Assembly: GCF_000615975.1 (NCBI RefSeq)
Contig: NZ_BAMP01000008.1
Location: forward strand, 1 to 64,000
Direction: 5' to 3'
DNA: 64,000 bases
Source: Nitratireductor aquibiodomus NL21 = JCM 21793
GTDB lineage: Bacteria; Pseudomonadota; Alphaproteobacteria; Rhizobiales; Rhizobiaceae
Under the pieces are notes generated by a model. The model made no database searches. It had not been told where the DNA came from and saw nothing but the letters and a program-made list of their open reading frames with translations. The translations under genes were made by a program, and so were the position numbers. The number at the start of each line of letters is the position of its first letter. Positions within the stretch are counted from its first letter, which is position 1. Below are positions 9,431 to 44,449 of the stretch, one piece after another.

Positions 9431-10003
9431 TTATGCCGCCTCTTCCTTCTCGCCTTCCTCATTGTCGGCCTTCGCACCGCGACGCGGGCCCTTGTTGAGG
9501 TTGGTCTCAATCAGGCGCACGGCCTCCGTCTCCGACATGCGGTTAACGGCCGCGATCTCGCGCGCCATGCGATCGAGCGCGGCTTCATAAAGCTGACGCT
9601 CCGAGTAGGACTGCTCCGGCTGGTTGTCGGCGCGGTAGAGATCGCGCACGACTTCCGAAATCGAGATCAGGTCACCCGAATTGATTTTTGCATCATATTC
9701 CTGGGCGCGGCGCGACCACATGGTGCGCTTCACGCGGGCGCGGCCCTGCACAACCTTGAGCGCGCGATCAACATAGTCGGTTTCGGAAAGCTTGCGCATG
9801 CCGATAGACGTCGCCTTGGCGACCGGCACCTTGAGGCGCATCTTGTCCTTCTGGAAATCGATGACGAACAATTCCAGCTTGTGACCGGCGACTTCCTGCT
9901 CTTCGATCGTAACGATCTGCCCGACGCCATGCGCCGGATACACAATATATTCGCCAGTCTTGAATCCCTGGCGCTGCGCCGATTTCTTCTGCTGGGTGGT
10001 CAT
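9431..10003 (-). CDS. carD: CarD family transcriptional regulator
   Basis: 190 residues. The N-terminal half (GEYIVYPAHGVGQIVTIEEQ through VVQGR) is the CarD/RID Tudor-like domain that binds the RNA polymerase beta subunit. The following helical part (WSRRAQEYDAKINSGDLISISEVVRDLY, then SYSERQLYEAALDRM) is the DNA-contacting domain that stabilises the open promoter complex. The tail is rich in Glu and Lys (KADNEEGEKEEAA). Translation begins at ATG 10003. The gene sits between rpoH and the ferredoxin gene, an arrangement usual in rhizobia, and is probably transcribed alone, ending at the 9277-9304 terminator. Confidence 0.95.
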   Translation of the reverse strand: MTTQQKKSAQRQGFKTGEYIVYPAHGVGQIVTIEEQEVAGHKLELFVIDFQKDKMRLKVPVAKATSIGMRKLSETDYVDRALKVVQGRARVKRTMWSRRAQEYDAKINSGDLISISEVVRDLYRADNQPEQSYSERQLYEAALDRMAREIAAVNRMSETEAVRLIETNLNKGPRRGAKADNEEGEKEEAA

Positions 10004-10383: not shown

Positions 10384-10722
10384 TCAGTCTCCTTCGCCGG
10401 GCTCCGGCGAAAAATACTGTTCCAGCTTGTTTTCGACGCCATCGAATTCCTTGGCGTCGGCCGGAGGCTCTTTCTTAGCGGTGATGTTGGGCCATTTTTC
10501 GGCATATTCGGAGTTGAGCTGAAGCCAGCTGTCCAGCCCCGGCTCCGTGTCGGGCTTGATCGCCTCTGCCGGGCATTCCGGCTCACAGACACCGCAGTCA
10601 ATGCACTCATCCGGATGGATGACGAGCATGTTCTCACCTTCATAGAAACAGTCTACCGGACAGACTTCTATACAGTCCATGTACTTGCACTTGATGCAGT
10701 TGTCGGTGACGATATAGGTCAT
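10384..10722 (-). CDS. fdxA: Ferredoxin FdxA, 7Fe ([3Fe-4S][4Fe-4S]) type
   Basis: 112 residues from ATG 10722; the longer frame to 10791 is not needed. The N-terminal half carries the cluster-binding pattern [17 protein letters not shown] followed by [16 protein letters not shown], identical in layout to the Azotobacter FdI type that holds one 3Fe-4S and one 4Fe-4S cluster. The C-terminal half ([16 protein letters not shown] onward) is the long tail typical of this subgroup. Cytoplasmic electron carrier; partner unknown here, although a ferredoxin-NADP reductase gene is encoded at 60.4 kb in the same window. Confidence 0.95.
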
Positions 10723-10860: not shown

Positions 10861-11250
10861 TCACCCATCGTCGCGCCATCGGTCGAGGGCACGACGTTCC
10901 TTCTTGGTCGGGCGCCCGGCCCCCATATCGCGCTTTGGCGGCACCGCCGCGGTCACGGCCTCCTTCGGCGGAGCTGGCGGGGTCATGTCCTCGTAAAGCG
11001 TTCGCGCTTCTTCTGCAGGACCTCGCCGCGCGCCCGGCGCGAGGACACGGTAGACGAGTATCCGCCGGTCGAGGGAAATGGTGAGCACGTCGCCCACCTT
11101 GATCTGGTAGGCGGCCTGCTCGATCTTGTTGCGGTTGACGCGAACCCGCCCGGCCTGGGCGAGCCTGGCGGCGAGCGAGCGTGATTTTACCACCCGCGCG
11201 AAGAACAGCCACTTGTCGATGCGCTGCCGTTCTAAAGCCGTTCCGCTCAT
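10861..11250 (-). CDS. S4-domain RNA-binding protein (Hsp15-like)
   Basis: 129 residues. The first 65 form an S4 domain (QRIDKWLFFARVVKSRSLAARL, then GRVRVNRNKIEQAAYQIKVGDVL). In E. coli Hsp15 (HslR) this fold binds stalled 50S subunits carrying nascent chains. The C-terminal half is basic and low-complexity (RPTKKERRALDRWRDDG), again as in Hsp15 relatives. It starts 9 bases downstream of the helicase stop and is likely co-transcribed with it, linking two RNA-related functions. Confidence 0.9.
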   Translation of the reverse strand: MSGTALERQRIDKWLFFARVVKSRSLAARLAQAGRVRVNRNKIEQAAYQIKVGDVLTISLDRRILVYRVLAPGARRGPAEEARTLYEDMTPPAPPKEAVTAAVPPKRDMGAGRPTKKERRALDRWRDDG

Positions 11251-11259
11251 TGCATGGCG

Positions 11260-14200
11260 CTACTTCTTCAGCTGGTCCTTCAGGGCAGCGAGCTTCGCAA
11301 AGGGTGAATCCGGATCAATGCGCGCCGGGCGCTCCTCACGCGGGCGGTGCGGTGCGCCCTTGCGCTTGAAGCCCGGCTTTTCGCCATCCTTGCGGTGCGG
11401 CTTGCCTCGCTTCTGGGCCCCGTCACGCTCCTGACGCCCGCGCGCCTGCTGACGCGGGTTCCCCTTGCCTGCACCATGGCGCTTGCGCCCGTCAAAACGG
11501 GCCTGCCGCCAGATGAGGACCGGCTTGGGTTCTTCTTCTTCGCCGGCTGGCTTTTCGGCCGGGGCTTCGGAAGCAGGTGCTTCAGCCGCCGCCTCGGGCG
11601 TCGCATCCGGTTCGATCTCTGCCTCAGGCGCCGAGAGCTCTGCAGGTGTCTCCGCTACGGCGGGTTCCACTGCCACTTCCTCATTCGGCTGCGTGGCAGC
11701 GTCCGCGCCCTCAGCCACAGGCTCGGCGGGTTTGGCCCCCTCCTCGGCCTTCTGCGTGGCATCCTTTTCCGCAGCCGCCTCATCCAGCGCCTTCAGATGC
11801 GCCGCCTCATCCAGCGCCTTCAGATGCGCCGCCACCTCTTCGGCCGGTTTCGGTCCCCGCGATAGCCCAGCCCCTTGAGGATCGCCTCCATGTCGTCGGC
11901 AGTCGCACCAAGAATGGACATCATCGCCGGCGTGACCACAAAGGCCGCACCGTCATAACCACCCTCCGGACGTGCTCCCGTTCCCGGCTTCCAGGAAAGC
12001 GCGGGACGGATGAGGTCCGCAAGGCGTTCCAGGATGTCGACGCGCACGGCACGGCGGCCGAGATTGCGATACCCCGCAAGACCGTAGAAGGCCTTCTCAA
12101 AGGCCGGATCGGTCACGATGGACGTGCGGCCGGCGGCAAGCGCGGCCACCACATCGCCATAGCCCGGCTTGTCTTTTGCGTCGTTCTTGAGCGCCCAGAG
12201 AAGCGACAGGAGACCGGCCGGTGCCGGCTTGATCAGCGCGGGGACAAAGATGTGATACGCGCCGAAGCGCACGCCGAGGCGACGCAGCGATGCACGCGCG
12301 TCCTGGTCCAGCGCCCGAACGTCTTCAGCCACAGTGCGGCGGTTCAGAACGCCAAAATTCTCGGCGAGCTGGAAGGCGATGCCACGCGCCATGCCCGACA
12401 GGCTTTCCGTATCGCGCAGGTCCACCAGCGGCTTCAGGAGCGATTCGACCTGATAGGTCACAAAGCGCTCGGCGCGGGCGGCGACCTTGTCGCGCGCCGG
12501 TCCAGTCAACTGCTCGTCGGCCAGGAGCACGATGCGCGGCTTCAGCGCATCCTCACCGGCCACCAGAGTGGCAATCGGCTGCCCGAGCCAGCGCAGCAGG
12601 CCGTCGGAATCGAGCGCCAGGTCCCCATTGCCCGACGCGGCAAAACGGTCCGCGCGGGTTTCAAACTCGGCGGCAAGCGCTTTCTGGGCGGCAGCCTTTA
12701 CGGCGCGCGCGTCCTCTCCTTCCGCCGAACGGTCGGCGGTAAAGCGGAACCCTAGCATCTCACCAACGTGATGCCCCTCGACAAGGACTTCGCCAACGGG
12801 GCTGATTTCTGCTTCCGGCATTGCATTCTCTCTCAGGCGCTTCATGAGCACGGAAGTCCTGCGGTCCACAAAGCGTTTCGTCAATCGCTCATGCAACGCA
12901 TCGGACAAACTGTCCTCAATCTCTCGTGTTTTTTCCTGCCAGTGTGTCGCATCGGCCAGCCATCCGGGCCTGTGCGAGACAAATGTCCATGTGCGAATCT
13001 GCGCGATCCGCTGTGATAACGTGTCGATGTCCCCCTCGGTGGAAGAGGCACGCTTGACCTGTTCGGCCATGTAGTCTTCATCGACATGGCCCATTCGCGC
13101 CAGATCAGAAAAGACTGCACCAACAATTTCCGCGTGCTGGGCCGGTGCGATGCGCCGGTAATCGGGCAGCACACAGGCCTCCCACAGGAGCCCGACACGC
13201 TCGCGTCCCTCGGCCAGCGCCCGGACATCCCCGTCACGCGAAAGGAATTCGAGCACTTTCGCATCGGCGGCCGGCAGCGCGCGCGTCAGGCCGTCCACGG
13301 GCGGCGGCGTATCGAGCGACGCCTTGAGCGCATCGACACTGGAAAGATCAAATGAGGCGGTGCGCCATTGCAGCACCTTCACGGGATCGAACTCATGCGC
13401 CTCGATGCGGTGGACCAGTTCATCGGCGAAGGGGTCGACCTGGCCGGTAACGCCAAACGTGCCGTCGCGCAGGTGCCGGCCGGCGCGGCCTGCAATCTGC
13501 CCGAGCTCCGCCGGATTAAGATCGCGATACTGGAAACCGTCGAATTTGCGGTTCTGCGCGAAGGCCACGTGATCGACATCGAGGTTGAGCCCCATGCCGA
13601 TCGCATCCGTCGCCACCAGATAGTCGACATCGCCGGACTGATAGAGCGCGACCTGTGCGTTGCGCGTGCGGGGCTCAGCGCGCCGAGCACCACGGCCACC
13701 CCGCCGCGCTGGCGGCGGATCAGTTCGCCAATGGCATAAACCTCGTCGGAGGAAAACGCCACGATGGCCGAGCGACGCGGCAGCCGCGTGATCTTGCGCG
13801 AGCCGGAATAGGTGAGCACCGACATGCGCGGCCGGGTGATGACGGAGAGGCCCGGCAGGAGCTTTTCCAGTATGCCACGCATCGTGCCGGCCCCGAGCAG
13901 CAACGTTTCCTCGCGGCCCCGCAGATGCAGGATACGGTCGGTGAAAATGTGGCCGCGTTCGAGATCCGCGGCAAGCTGGACCTCGTCGATCGCAACGAAG
14001 GCCACATCGGCCTCACGCGGCATGGCCTCCACCGTACACACCGAAAAGCGTGCCCCCGGCGGCGCAATCTTTTCCTCGCCGGTTATCAGTGCCACATGCT
14101 GCTCGCCCACCTTGGCGACCACGCGCGAATAGACCTCGCGCGCAAGCAGGCGCAGCGGCAGACCGATGATGCCGCTGGAATGCGCAACCATGCGCTCGAT

Positions 14201-14299
14201 GGCGAGATGCGTCTTGCCCGTGTTGGTAGGGCCGAGGATGGCTGTGACGTTGCGCCCCGAAAGCACCCGGGGGCTGGCGTTCTGATTCTGGAAATTCAT
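11260..14299 (-). CDS. Suv3-like superfamily 2 RNA helicase (two one-base frameshifts)
   Basis: Repaired length about 1013 residues, start ATG 14299. Walker A GPTNTGKTH, the DEAD-box variant DEVQ and GAGTMRG form the first RecA domain. The second continues in the next frame with LYQSGDVDYLVATDAIGMGLNLDV and QIAGRAGRH (motif VI). The frames join at ALSP|RTRNAQVALYQ: one C is missing from the run at 13670-13673. After a long alpha-helical region, a second shift at 11855-11858 separates GLGYRG from an acidic, Ala/Glu/Pro-rich stretch and a basic tail (GRKRHGAGKGNPRQQARGRQ), ending at 11260. Suv3-family helicases unwind RNA in degradosome-like complexes. The low-complexity C-terminus is usual for the rhizobial form. 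S4 protein and ferredoxin genes follow on the same strand. Confidence 0.9.
11774..11827 (-). repeat. 27-base tandem duplication inside the helicase gene
   Basis: Two adjacent identical 27-base units (11774-11800 and 11801-11827) encode the nine-residue segment AAHLKALDE twice in the low-complexity part of the helicase. The frame is kept, so it is a tolerated in-frame duplication at the edge of a disordered tail. Confidence 0.85.
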
Positions 14300-14966
14300 A
14301 GGGCCCGGAAAGCCGTCTACCTCAGCGAAAAAAGGCGAGCACACGGGTTAGCACGCTTTGCCTCCGCATTCCAAGGCAAGACTGTCATTCCCCCGACAAT
14401 GACTGCCATATGCCTTCGCATATCCATGCATCCGTTAAGGTTTGGAACGAGTCTGGAACGAATCGGCGACGAATCACTGACTTTGCAGATTTCCCGTTTT
14501 GTTCACCCCAACATACTGTATGACGCAGAGGAAGCGGAACTAGATGCTGAATCTGTGTCAAACGGGAAGTGCCGCAAAGGAAGGGTGACCGTTAACCTTT
14601 TGCAGGCAGCGGAGACGCAGGTCCGTTCTTCCCTGCACAAGCATAAGATTTTGTTAGGAAAATTTGACCGTCTGTTAACAGCCGCACCGTGCAGATGGAG
14701 ACCTGGCATTAACACTTCGACCAAACCCGGAACGAATCAGCGACGAATCAGTGATATCGCAATGTTCCCGTTACGTTCACCGCTACATCTGGTGTTTTCC
14801 ACTGCCTGTCGACAGACAGCGCACACCTTATCCACAGCTCGGCTCCGGCAAGATGAAAGCTCCGTTAACCGAATTGCTTCAAATTGATACAGGATCGAGG
14901 GGCCCGGAACGCCATGATCGATCCACAGCGTCCCGAAAATTTACGGCGCGGCATACCTGATTTTCA
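14300..14966. other. Non-coding region with GANTC iteron-like repeats and a DnaA box
   Basis: About 660 bases with no credible coding frame, between the divergently oriented helicase start and the 3' end of phaB. Two 53-base imperfect direct repeats (14455-14507 and 14729-14781, 43 of 53 identical by eye) each hold two GAATC sites 11 bases apart. The first is preceded by a third unit (GAGTC, also 11 bases away). A perfect DnaA box TTATCCACA lies at 14828-14836, and several GTTAAC/GTTAAG motifs are scattered through the block. It may hold the helicase promoter, a small RNA, or a replication-related site. Confidence 0.6.
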
Positions 14967-15686
14967 TCAGATGAAGTATTGCCCGCCATTGACGGTCAGC
15001 GTCGAGCCGGTCACGAAGCCTGCATCGTCGGACGCCAGGAAGAGCACCGACCGTGCGATTTCCGACGCCTCGCCCAGCCGCCCCACCGGGATTTGCGCGA
15101 TGATCTTCTCGCGCACCGCTTCCGGCACGGCCATCACCATGTCGGTGGCGATATAGCCCGGGCAGATCGCATTCACCGTCACATTGAAACGCGCCCCCTC
15201 CTGGGCCAGCGCCTTGGTGAAACCGATCTCCCCGGCCTTGGCGGCCGAGTAATTGGCCTGGCCCATCTGGCCTTTCTGACCGTTGATCGAGGAAATACTG
15301 ATGATCCGGCCAAACTTGCGCGAGCGCATGCCGGCGAAAACCTGATGCGTCATATTGAAGACGCCGTTGAGATTGACATCGACCACCGCGCGCCAGTCTT
15401 CCGGCGTCATCTTGTGAAACATCACATCGCGCGTGATCCCGGCATTGTTGACCAGAATATCTACGGGCCCGAGATCGGCTTCGATCTTCGCCACACCCTC
15501 GGCACAGGCGTCATAGTCGGCGATCGACCATTTATAGGTGGCGATGCCGGTTTCCTCGGTAAACCGGGACGCCGCCTCGTCATTGCCCGCATAGTTCGCC
15601 GCAACCTGATAGCCCGCCTCTTTGAGAGCTGTCGCTATCGCCGCGCCGATACCACGGGTTCCCCCGGTAACAAGTGCCGTCTTCAT
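14967..15686 (-). CDS. phaB: Acetoacetyl-CoA reductase
   Basis: 239-residue short-chain dehydrogenase using NADPH to reduce acetoacetyl-CoA to (R)-3-hydroxybutyryl-CoA for polyhydroxyalkanoate synthesis. Residues 6-14 hold the cofactor motif TGGTRGIGA. The structural motif NNAG, the catalytic Ser in SSINGQKGQ, and YSAAKAG with Tyr and Lys are all present. The phrase GQKGQMGQANYSAAKAG distinguishes PhaB/PhbB from other SDR members such as FabG. Start ATG 15686 was chosen because the longer frame (to 15836) crosses into the phaA terminus. It is immediately downstream of phaA on the same strand, forming the classical phaAB pair. Confidence 0.95.
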   Translation of the reverse strand: MKTALVTGGTRGIGAAIATALKEAGYQVAANYAGNDEAASRFTEETGIATYKWSIADYDACAEGVAKIEADLGPVDILVNNAGITRDVMFHKMTPEDWRAVVDVNLNGVFNMTHQVFAGMRSRKFGRIISISSINGQKGQMGQANYSAAKAGEIGFTKALAQEGARFNVTVNAICPGYIATDMVMAVPEAVREKIIAQIPVGRLGEASEIARSVLFLASDDAGFVTGSTLTVNGGQYFI

Positions 15687-15795
15687 GCAGATCGCCTCCC
15701 TTGAGATGAATGTTCCCCGCCGCCTTCGCCCTATTGTGCCTGAGCGATAATCCGGCTGGCGCGCAACGGTCTCCCGCGGCGCGCCGCCAATCAGC

Positions 15796-44265: not shown

Positions 44266-44340
44266 CCATTCGAATGGGCGAAGGGCTGTGCGCACGTGTT
44301 GCGCTGCAGCATCATCCGGGTTAAACACCGCGCATCCGCT

Positions 44341-44392
44341 TAGGACCCGGTGAAACTCCGGGTGGCTCTGCCGGCCGCTGATCCGCCGGCGC
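44341..44392 (+). other. Structured leader upstream of the SulP gene (candidate cis-regulatory RNA)
   Basis: Two GC-rich hairpins: ACCCGG (44345-44350) with CCGGGT (44358-44363), loop TGAAACT; and GCCGGC (44370-44375) with GCCGGC (44385-44390), 9-base loop. They lie about 60 bases before the SulP start. The layout suggests a folded 5' leader, but I cannot assign it to a known riboswitch class. Confidence 0.35.
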
Positions 44393-44449
44393 AACCTCGA
44401 TCGTTTCTGTCTTTCCCGGCCGCAGAAGCCTGTCGGCGGTTGGGAGGTC

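Follow-up and report, generated by a model that had tools for sequence, protein, structure and literature searches.

The question raised by this locus is what function may be served by a repeat-bearing, non-coding block at 14345-14960 of the window, i.e., of the whole 64-kb stretch of DNA analysed here. The block is intergenic: a Suv3-like helicase gene starts on one side (minus strand, ATG at 14299), and a phaB-type gene ends on the other (minus strand, 14967). The first-pass annotation, made from the letters alone, had offered several readings, namely a methylation-sensitive regulatory element or a DnaA-titration site, possibly an origin-like sequence or a small-RNA locus. The results below allow us to conclude that the block is a real and very old stretch of non-coding DNA, probably a switch, kept ahead of one helicase operon in many alphaproteobacteria and, as judged from sequence comparisons, that its repeat is an ancient, conserved DNA element of about 80 bp, duplicated in this lineage.

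The motifs described in the first-pass annotation were all recovered. Its two imperfect direct repeats (14455-14507 and 14729-14781) agree at 43 of 53 positions, whereas the best ungapped 53-nt repeat in dinucleotide-shuffled blocks had 27.1 matches on average and 33 at most (n = 200). A repeat search extended them to 80-nt copies, 14435-14514 and 14709-14788, which lie 274 bp apart and are 74% identical. GANTC occurs at 14449 (as GAGTC), 14460, 14471, 14549, 14734 and 14745; the site at 14549 had escaped notice earlier, and the 11-bp spacings, including that of the third unit GAGTC, are as claimed. Three GANTC pairs are spaced by 11 bp when compared to 0.011 expected, a number reached in none of 2000 shuffles, while the count of GANTC itself is only weakly raised (six vs. 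2.74 expected, p = 0.043, dinucleotide shuffles). The perfect DnaA box at 14828-14836 is exact; 0.004 such boxes are expected from shuffles, and it is the sole one in the window. The GTTAA motifs are likewise present, as GTTAA or TTAAC before both copies and again between and after them. In addition, each copy contains a perfect box, GAAC-N7-GAAC in copy 1 and GTTC-N7-GTTC in copy 2 (two vs. 0.033 expected from shuffles). The features of the block and its neighbourhood are the following.

9431-10003, minus strand: carD/cdnL, a CarD-family regulator (Pfam CarD domains)
10384-10722, minus strand: fdxA-type ferredoxin (Pfam 4Fe-4S domains)
10861-11250, minus strand: S4 RNA-binding domain protein (Pfam S4)
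11820-14299, minus strand: Suv3-like helicase gene, interrupted by a frameshift in the assembly (Pfam DEXQc_Suv3 and Helicase_C on the Rhizobium orthologue)
14346-14374, minus strand: probable helicase core promoter, TTGGAA-17 bp-CTAACC
14432-14516, plus strand: element copy 1, helicase-proximal, with 63.5% of columns invariant in the window and nine same-genus genomes; it comprises the 11-bp units GAAC-GAGTC, GAAC-GAATC and CGAC-GAATC, then CTGAC, TTTC-N7-GTTC (14490-14504) and CAACAT (14509-14514)
14459-14465, minus strand: match to the GcrA motif YGAKTCG in unit 2 of copy 1 (CGAATCG on the plus strand, CGATTCG on the minus strand)
14470-14476, minus strand: GcrA-type motif in unit 3 of copy 1, where the element varies least (CGAATCA on the plus strand, TGATTCG on the minus strand)
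14539-14553, plus strand: conserved A.ATGCTGAATC with the GANTC 78 bp past unit 3 of copy 1; 80% of columns invariant in the genus
14588-14601, no strand assigned: CGTTAACCTTTT motif; half of the columns invariant in the genus
14641-14668, no strand assigned: A+T-rich, partly conserved stretch between the copies; 29% of columns invariant
14705-14790, plus strand: element copy 2, with 57% of columns invariant in the genus alignment; it comprises TTAAC, GAAC-GAATC, CGAC-GAATC, GTTC-N7-GTTC (14764-14778) and CTACAT (14783-14788)
14733-14739, minus strand: GcrA-type motif in unit 2 of copy 2 (CGAATCA on the plus strand)
14744-14750, minus strand: GcrA-type motif in unit 3 of copy 2 (CGAATCA on the plus strand)
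14795-14802, plus strand: TTTTCCAC, DnaA-box-like; TTCCAC kept in 10 aligned genus loci
14828-14836, plus strand: perfect DnaA box TTATCCACA; exact in seven of 10 genus loci, the window included
14967-15689, minus strand: phaB-type short-chain reductase, 3' end facing the block; an inconstant neighbour

The putative helicase promoter pattern, TTGGAA-17 bp-CTAACC, was found in all 10 genus loci and in none of 129 other loci. A terminator-like hairpin with a T-run (14338-14357, minus strand) lies just upstream of the helicase start and overlaps this promoter. The helicase region 11820-14344 holds two overlapping open frames, 13379-14344 and 11820-13616, where the Rhizobium orthologue is a single long gene; the split may be an assembly error or just as well a real frameshift. 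Past the DnaA box, GTTAACC and TTGCTTCAAATTGATACAG (14857-14880) are conserved in the genus.

A lack of conservation in close relatives had been set beforehand as the refuting outcome; instead, the element was matched in all nine same-genus genomes. In the first similarity search of 60 genomes, the window's own among them, the block matched these nine at E values of 2.2e-20 or lower, 13 of 26 further genomes from the same family at 1.5e-6 or lower, and one of 24 from other families of the order (E 7e-9); in one more genome of another family (G054) the element was detected by a profile, the first search having given only E 0.0024. Conservation is centred on the copies. Across the window and the nine same-genus genomes, 64% of the columns are invariant in copy 1 and 57% in copy 2, 49% from copy 2 through the DnaA box and 50% in the putative helicase promoter, and just 2-11% in seven stretches between and around the copies. 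The 44 copies taken from 21 loci could be aligned almost without gaps.

A scan of a public genome collection with GAACGAATCNNCGACGAATC, which demands units 2 and 3 and is thus blind to variation there, gave at least 118 stretches, among them three neighbouring same-contig pairs and one Streptomyces record; the matches listed include Rhizobium, Mesorhizobium, Ensifer, Hoeflea, Brucella, Bartonella, Chelativorans and others. The Streptomyces record (L176) matched the 20-letter pattern and is among the 139 loci discussed below, where it is presumably the one without an element by profile; the match is presumed to be due to chance or contamination. Among the matches listed, 38, 77, 19 and six of 140 loci carry one, two, three and four anchored copies, respectively, nine unanchored matches being omitted and single copies often standing at a cut locus end. 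Copies within one locus share their orientation, the sole opposite-strand match at E ≤ 0.01 being a weak overlap in L127.

A sequence-only profile trained on rhizobial copies alone (R1) found the element in 31 of 289 genomes of the class at E ≤ 0.01, the own genome counted, and, at E < 1e-6, in 14 genomes in addition to the window's own (best value 3e-13). A second profile (R2), built from 27 distant and 13 rhizobial copies, found it in 47 of 385 class genomes at E ≤ 0.01 and, again counting the own genome, in 40 of 385 from 17 families at E < 1e-6; 12 of these 40 lie outside its alignment, with E from 7.5e-7 to 4.9e-18. The class consensus of the element reads GGAACAnnnnnGGAACGAATCAGGnCCGAATCACTGACnnnnnnnnnTTCnnGnTTTGTTCACnACTAnATnTnGTG. 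The 8-Mb genome G420 of the same order bears a second, weaker element-like site (23 bits; L275, 5784-5855), which lies in or next to an open frame at a distance from the helicase. In the portions of the literature covered by our search, which was incomplete in coverage, no description of this element was found. In our judgement, bacteria seldom show a non-coding element of 80 bp that can be recognised at a single operon across 17 sampled families.

The element is clearly linked to one operon. Among the matches listed, 124 of 139 rhizobial-pattern loci have a divergent Suv3-like helicase behind it, 12 of the remaining ones being cut by the locus end, two lacking the helicase (L153 and L189) and one lacking the element. 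The same holds for 28 of 30 loci fetched from the class at large. The gene order is helicase-S4-TerB-fdxA-carD, with the element at its head. In G113 no helicase was seen in 19 kb, and in G261 an insert with a MerR gene puts about 4.6 kb between helicase and element; the latter insert (L327) holds a MerR-family regulator (Pfam) and other genes, and a short stretch resembling the helicase N-terminus lies near the element. In G408, where no helicase was seen in the 8 kb fetched, the element precedes TerB-fdxA-carD. The helicase is present in 31 of 50 class genomes without an R2 match, which indicates that the operon can do without the element, and no degenerate element was found in 30 helicase upstream regions of R2-negative genomes, which suggests that in many lineages it is missing as a whole.

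The other flank of the element is not constant. It is an acyl-CoA dehydrogenase gene in several families and different genes elsewhere, so that phaB is a local neighbour only; as a constant partner it was refuted by its location elsewhere in L090 and L130, and one common divergent gene was ruled out by the differences among lineages. In five loci (L021, L116, L129, L157 and L158) a gene for a hydrophobic DUF3309-like protein of 51-56 aa, with Pfam applied to that of L021, stands between or after the copies, and some of these loci also carry a glycine-zipper protein gene.

Which part of the element is kept most strictly? Variation is least in CGAATC and the A or G that follows it. Unit 3 reads ACGAATC in all 44 copies obtained by block similarity, the next base being A in 34 and G in 10, and CGAATC[A/G] in all 27 distant copies; in the rhizobial set, which was anchored on CGAATC, the following base is A or G in 269 of 271 copies. 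In the background, 51 of 916 GANTC sites have this form. The invariance of unit 3 is partly built in, because the scan required CGAATC in both units, profile hits favour it, and the later copies were anchored on it, nine being left out. In unit 2, the motif is present in 249 of 271 rhizobial copies vs. six of 27 distant ones. Since the N of GANTC in unit 3 is always A, more than a methylation site is kept. The reverse complement of CGAATC[A/G] is YGATTCG, in agreement with the GcrA motif of Caulobacter, which was given as TGATTCG, YGAKTCK or YGAKTCG (PMC7987155). In Brevundimonas, the same report found no such preference, apart from a slightly favoured C in front of the site (PMC7987155).

Of the earlier suggestions, that of a methylation-sensitive regulatory element is the one that gains support. 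Its core is the extended GANTC motif of GcrA, and a CcrM-type methylase domain is encoded in 28 of the 29 element-bearing genomes searched (absent in G261). However, CcrM is common anyway: the domain occurs also in 36 of 50 genomes without an R2 match, so that its co-occurrence is not discriminating and was dropped as proof. The conservation pattern of GcrA and CcrM was described as one and the same (PMC3973325). Another possible reader of the GANTC sites is MucR, as MucR proteins bind some unmethylated GANTC in Caulobacter (PMC7987155).

On the strength of motif, architecture and operon linkage, we consider it most likely, though with moderate confidence, that the element is a GcrA/CcrM regulatory site of the helicase-carD operon, duplicated in rhizobia and perhaps helically phased. 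The block would then be the upstream control region of the helicase-S4-(TerB)-fdxA-carD operon, with a functional unit composed of GAAC-type half-sites in 11-bp steps, the near-invariant CGAATC[A/G], CTGAC, about nine free bases, TTC-N4-TTTGTTCAC and, at the end, C(T/A)AnAT. GcrA, a cell-cycle regulator, may dock on this unit with a grip that would be tuned by CcrM methylation of the inner GANTC, such that the transcriptional output of the operon could track the passage of the replication fork. In rhizobia, the complexes on the duplicated copies would cooperate on one face of the DNA. The GAAC units, TTTGTTCAC and C.A.AT are left unexplained by GcrA, and the conservation of these additional parts suggests a further partner, either a LexA-like protein or an unknown one. 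If this is a GcrA site, the methylation circuit would be tied to CarD/CdnL, which was linked to rRNA transcription (PMC5324124), and the locus would offer a single-locus test, in many families, of the original purpose of the GcrA/CcrM circuit.

The spacing of the copies is consistent with such an arrangement. Of 120 pairs of adjacent copies closer than 330 bp, 37 show a distance of 271-275 bp, 34 one of 280-284 bp and three one of 276-279 bp, the other 46 ranging from 196 to 300. In a jitter test on 55 spacer values, collapsed in a way that removes shared descent in part only, a period of about one helical turn was favoured (p = 0.0025 for 10.5 bp), but 9.5 and 11 bp fit better, and the test is not a sharp one. 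The distance from the putative helicase -10 box to copy 1 is 123 bp in six of 10 genomes and 102, 120, 132 and 133 bp in the others, i.e., shifted by -21, -3, +9 and +10. Taken together, these steps, mostly near one or two turns, are suggestive of helical phasing.

Caulobacter locus tags presumably run in gene order, as is the convention. The gene for its CarD homologue, cdnL, is CCNA_00690 (PMC6994171), and with tags in order the position of the element, some five or more genes from carD, fits CCNA_00697. The latter is the strongest GcrA ChIP site in Caulobacter, with three GAnTC and a requirement for CcrM in vivo; its fragment showed promoter activity in lacZ fusions, the reporter dropped by only 31% on GcrA depletion, and mutation of GAnTC had no effect (PMC3667746). 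The last two results speak against the GcrA/CcrM reading. Going by the gene numbers, this site is probably at the same place as our element, which, if a GcrA site, would offer a reason for a puzzling top GcrA peak whose reporter hardly responds to GcrA. Three GANTC proved a weak tie to CCNA_00697, being reached or exceeded in just six of 27 distant copies. Family f89 may belong to the Caulobacterales, its CcrM being 72% identical to that of Caulobacter, but the CcrM of f141 is equally close (73%).

The element thus resembles GcrA/CcrM promoters of Caulobacter in its core, the reverse complement of YGATTCG, and the CCNA_00697 site in its several close GANTC and in the likely common gene neighbourhood. 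It differs from such promoters in being long and composite, with further conserved parts, an extent of 17 families and tandem copies in rhizobia, and in the place of its motif, some 120-137 bp above the putative helicase start (and about 50 bp from a putative plus-strand start). A bolder version, in which an ancient alphaproteobacterial docking hub for GcrA gave rise to the strongest GcrA peak of Caulobacter, held GcrA in a replication- and methylation-dependent manner, coupled the supply of CarD, a global regulator of transcription, and perhaps of free GcrA to passage of the fork and grew into helically phased arrays in rhizobia, we regard as doubtful.

Several other explanations have to be weighed against the GcrA/CcrM reading. 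The alphaproteobacterial LexA consensus is GAAC-N7-GAAC, and the element might be an operator recognised by another protein, LexA foremost, through GAAC half-sites spaced by 11 bp, with GAATC as part of the site and methylation incidental. At the left of the element, half-sites follow each other in steps of 11 bp, with TTC/GTTC as their mirror image at the right. Besides the perfect boxes in copies 1 and 2 of the window, a perfect GAAC-N7-GAAC occurs in 122 of 139 helicase-side copies, which thus share both half-site and step with SOS boxes, and at least one perfect box in 33 of 44 copies of the first set; lexA promoters carry GAACACAACTGGAAC in all five genus genomes, the recA promoter of G166 (RecA by Pfam) matches the right arm of the element, and LexA is encoded in 25 of 27 element-bearing genomes. 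Half-sites, lexA promoter box and LexA presence make an SOS role of the helicase-side copy a live rival. However, the perfect box is kept in only 19 of 132 copies farther from the helicase and is lost in 20 of 27 distant ones (seven keep it, and in none of the 27 is the first base of the right arm a G), GTTC-N7-GTTC is found in only 38 of 270 copies, the most constant CGAATC[A/G] falls outside the SOS box, and the whole element is found at the helicase operon and absent at lexA. We therefore hold a LexA-type operator to be improbable as the explanation of the element as a whole. A further peculiarity of the helicase-side copies is GAGTC at unit 1, seen in 56 of 138 vs. none of 132 others. The lack of LexA in G298 and G286 was not used as proof against it, the recA promoter of G298 having a perfect box, and BvrR, a regulator of 11-bp repeats, was considered as a reader but offered no match to judge by.

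The right end of the element raises another option. The rhizobial -10 box is CTATAT, and C.A.AT, which resembles it, is kept in 246 of 270 copies at any distance from the helicase and in 25 of 27 distant copies. The element could accordingly be a plus-strand promoter that points away from the helicase, towards a divergent gene or a short non-coding transcript, with C(T/A)AnAT as its -10 box and the rest binding an activator, possibly GcrA. An acyl-CoA dehydrogenase frame starts 43-156 bp downstream in eight of 27 distant loci and, in G113 and G408, which show no helicase in the stretches fetched, stays beside the element; the promoter activity of the CCNA_00697 fragment in lacZ fusions (PMC3667746) would fit as well. 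On the other hand, a conserved -35 is missing, the downstream gene varies (acyl-CoA dehydrogenase, an rpmB-like frame named by eye, DUF3309, phaB or convergent genes), the sequence downstream is not shared among copies, the plus strand of the block has no terminator-like site, and neither a covarying structure in the copies nor a credible Rfam match of the block was found; this makes the option rather unlikely. The persistence of the element in G113 and G408 could also speak for a chromosomal reservoir or landmark that binds GcrA, or some other replication-coupled protein, and does not chiefly regulate its neighbours. There are one to four copies, some more than 1 kb apart yet conserved, and the probable Caulobacter counterpart combines strong GcrA binding with little reporter effect (PMC3667746). 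But the element keeps its orientation and its place at a single operon in 124 of 139 and 28 of 30 loci, which suggests a local job, and we give this account a low probability.

As to replication, the chromosomal origin of rhizobia is the hemE region, and datA is a known DnaA-binding site. The block resembles these in its perfect DnaA box, TTTTCCAC, GTTAAC motifs, GANTC cluster and A+T-rich stretch, and the stretch with the DnaA box is 49% invariant in the genus. In contrast, it is misplaced, the GC skew does not change at the site, and the DnaA box is not generally conserved. In five genomes (G001, G002, G004, G008 and G024) hemE lies about 410-490 kb from the block, which bears out the earlier statement that this is not the main chromosomal origin; the distance is 51 kb in G054 and about 132 kb in the record of Rhizobium sp. 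NLR16a, still different places. A sign change of the GC skew was sought at the block in G002, and none was found: within the 360 kb around it, 33 of 36 10-kb bins are negative, and the three positive ones are all on one side, at 31-61 kb. In the NLR16a record, a 50-kb patch of positive skew encloses the element, also with no sign change there. The origin-like sequence proposed earlier is thus not supported and was rejected, and the case for a DnaA-titration site is weak, the exact box being present in just 17 of 140 loci although its stretch is well conserved in the own genus. An origin-like or titration function altogether seems to us extremely improbable.

The NLR16a record, 'plasmid p3' (NZ_CP072868, 489 kb, L051-L075), holds hemE, fdxA and carD. 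No RepC match was found in it, and it had been considered as a repC-less replicon hinting at origin function; this was abandoned, as the record holds hemE itself. Its GC skew is negative in 36 of 49 bins, which together with hemE indicates a slice of the chromosome, so that it is probably a chromosomal piece separated by assembly or by real fission.

Small RNA loci of rhizobia include the alpha-r families and MmgR, and the block is similar to these in being intergenic, repeated and near PHB genes. It is dissimilar in the absence of a covarying fold from the copies (84 columns; five pairs predicted, no compensatory changes) and of a credible family in an Rfam search of the block, where one match fell far below the gathering score; the small-RNA locus suggested earlier was therefore rejected. 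In the main texts of two S. meliloti sRNA surveys, no passage on the helicase, phbB or SMc locus tags was found. Elsewhere in the window, Rfam matches to a sul1 RNA and a TPP riboswitch were obtained, at 44340-44395 and 2863-2976.
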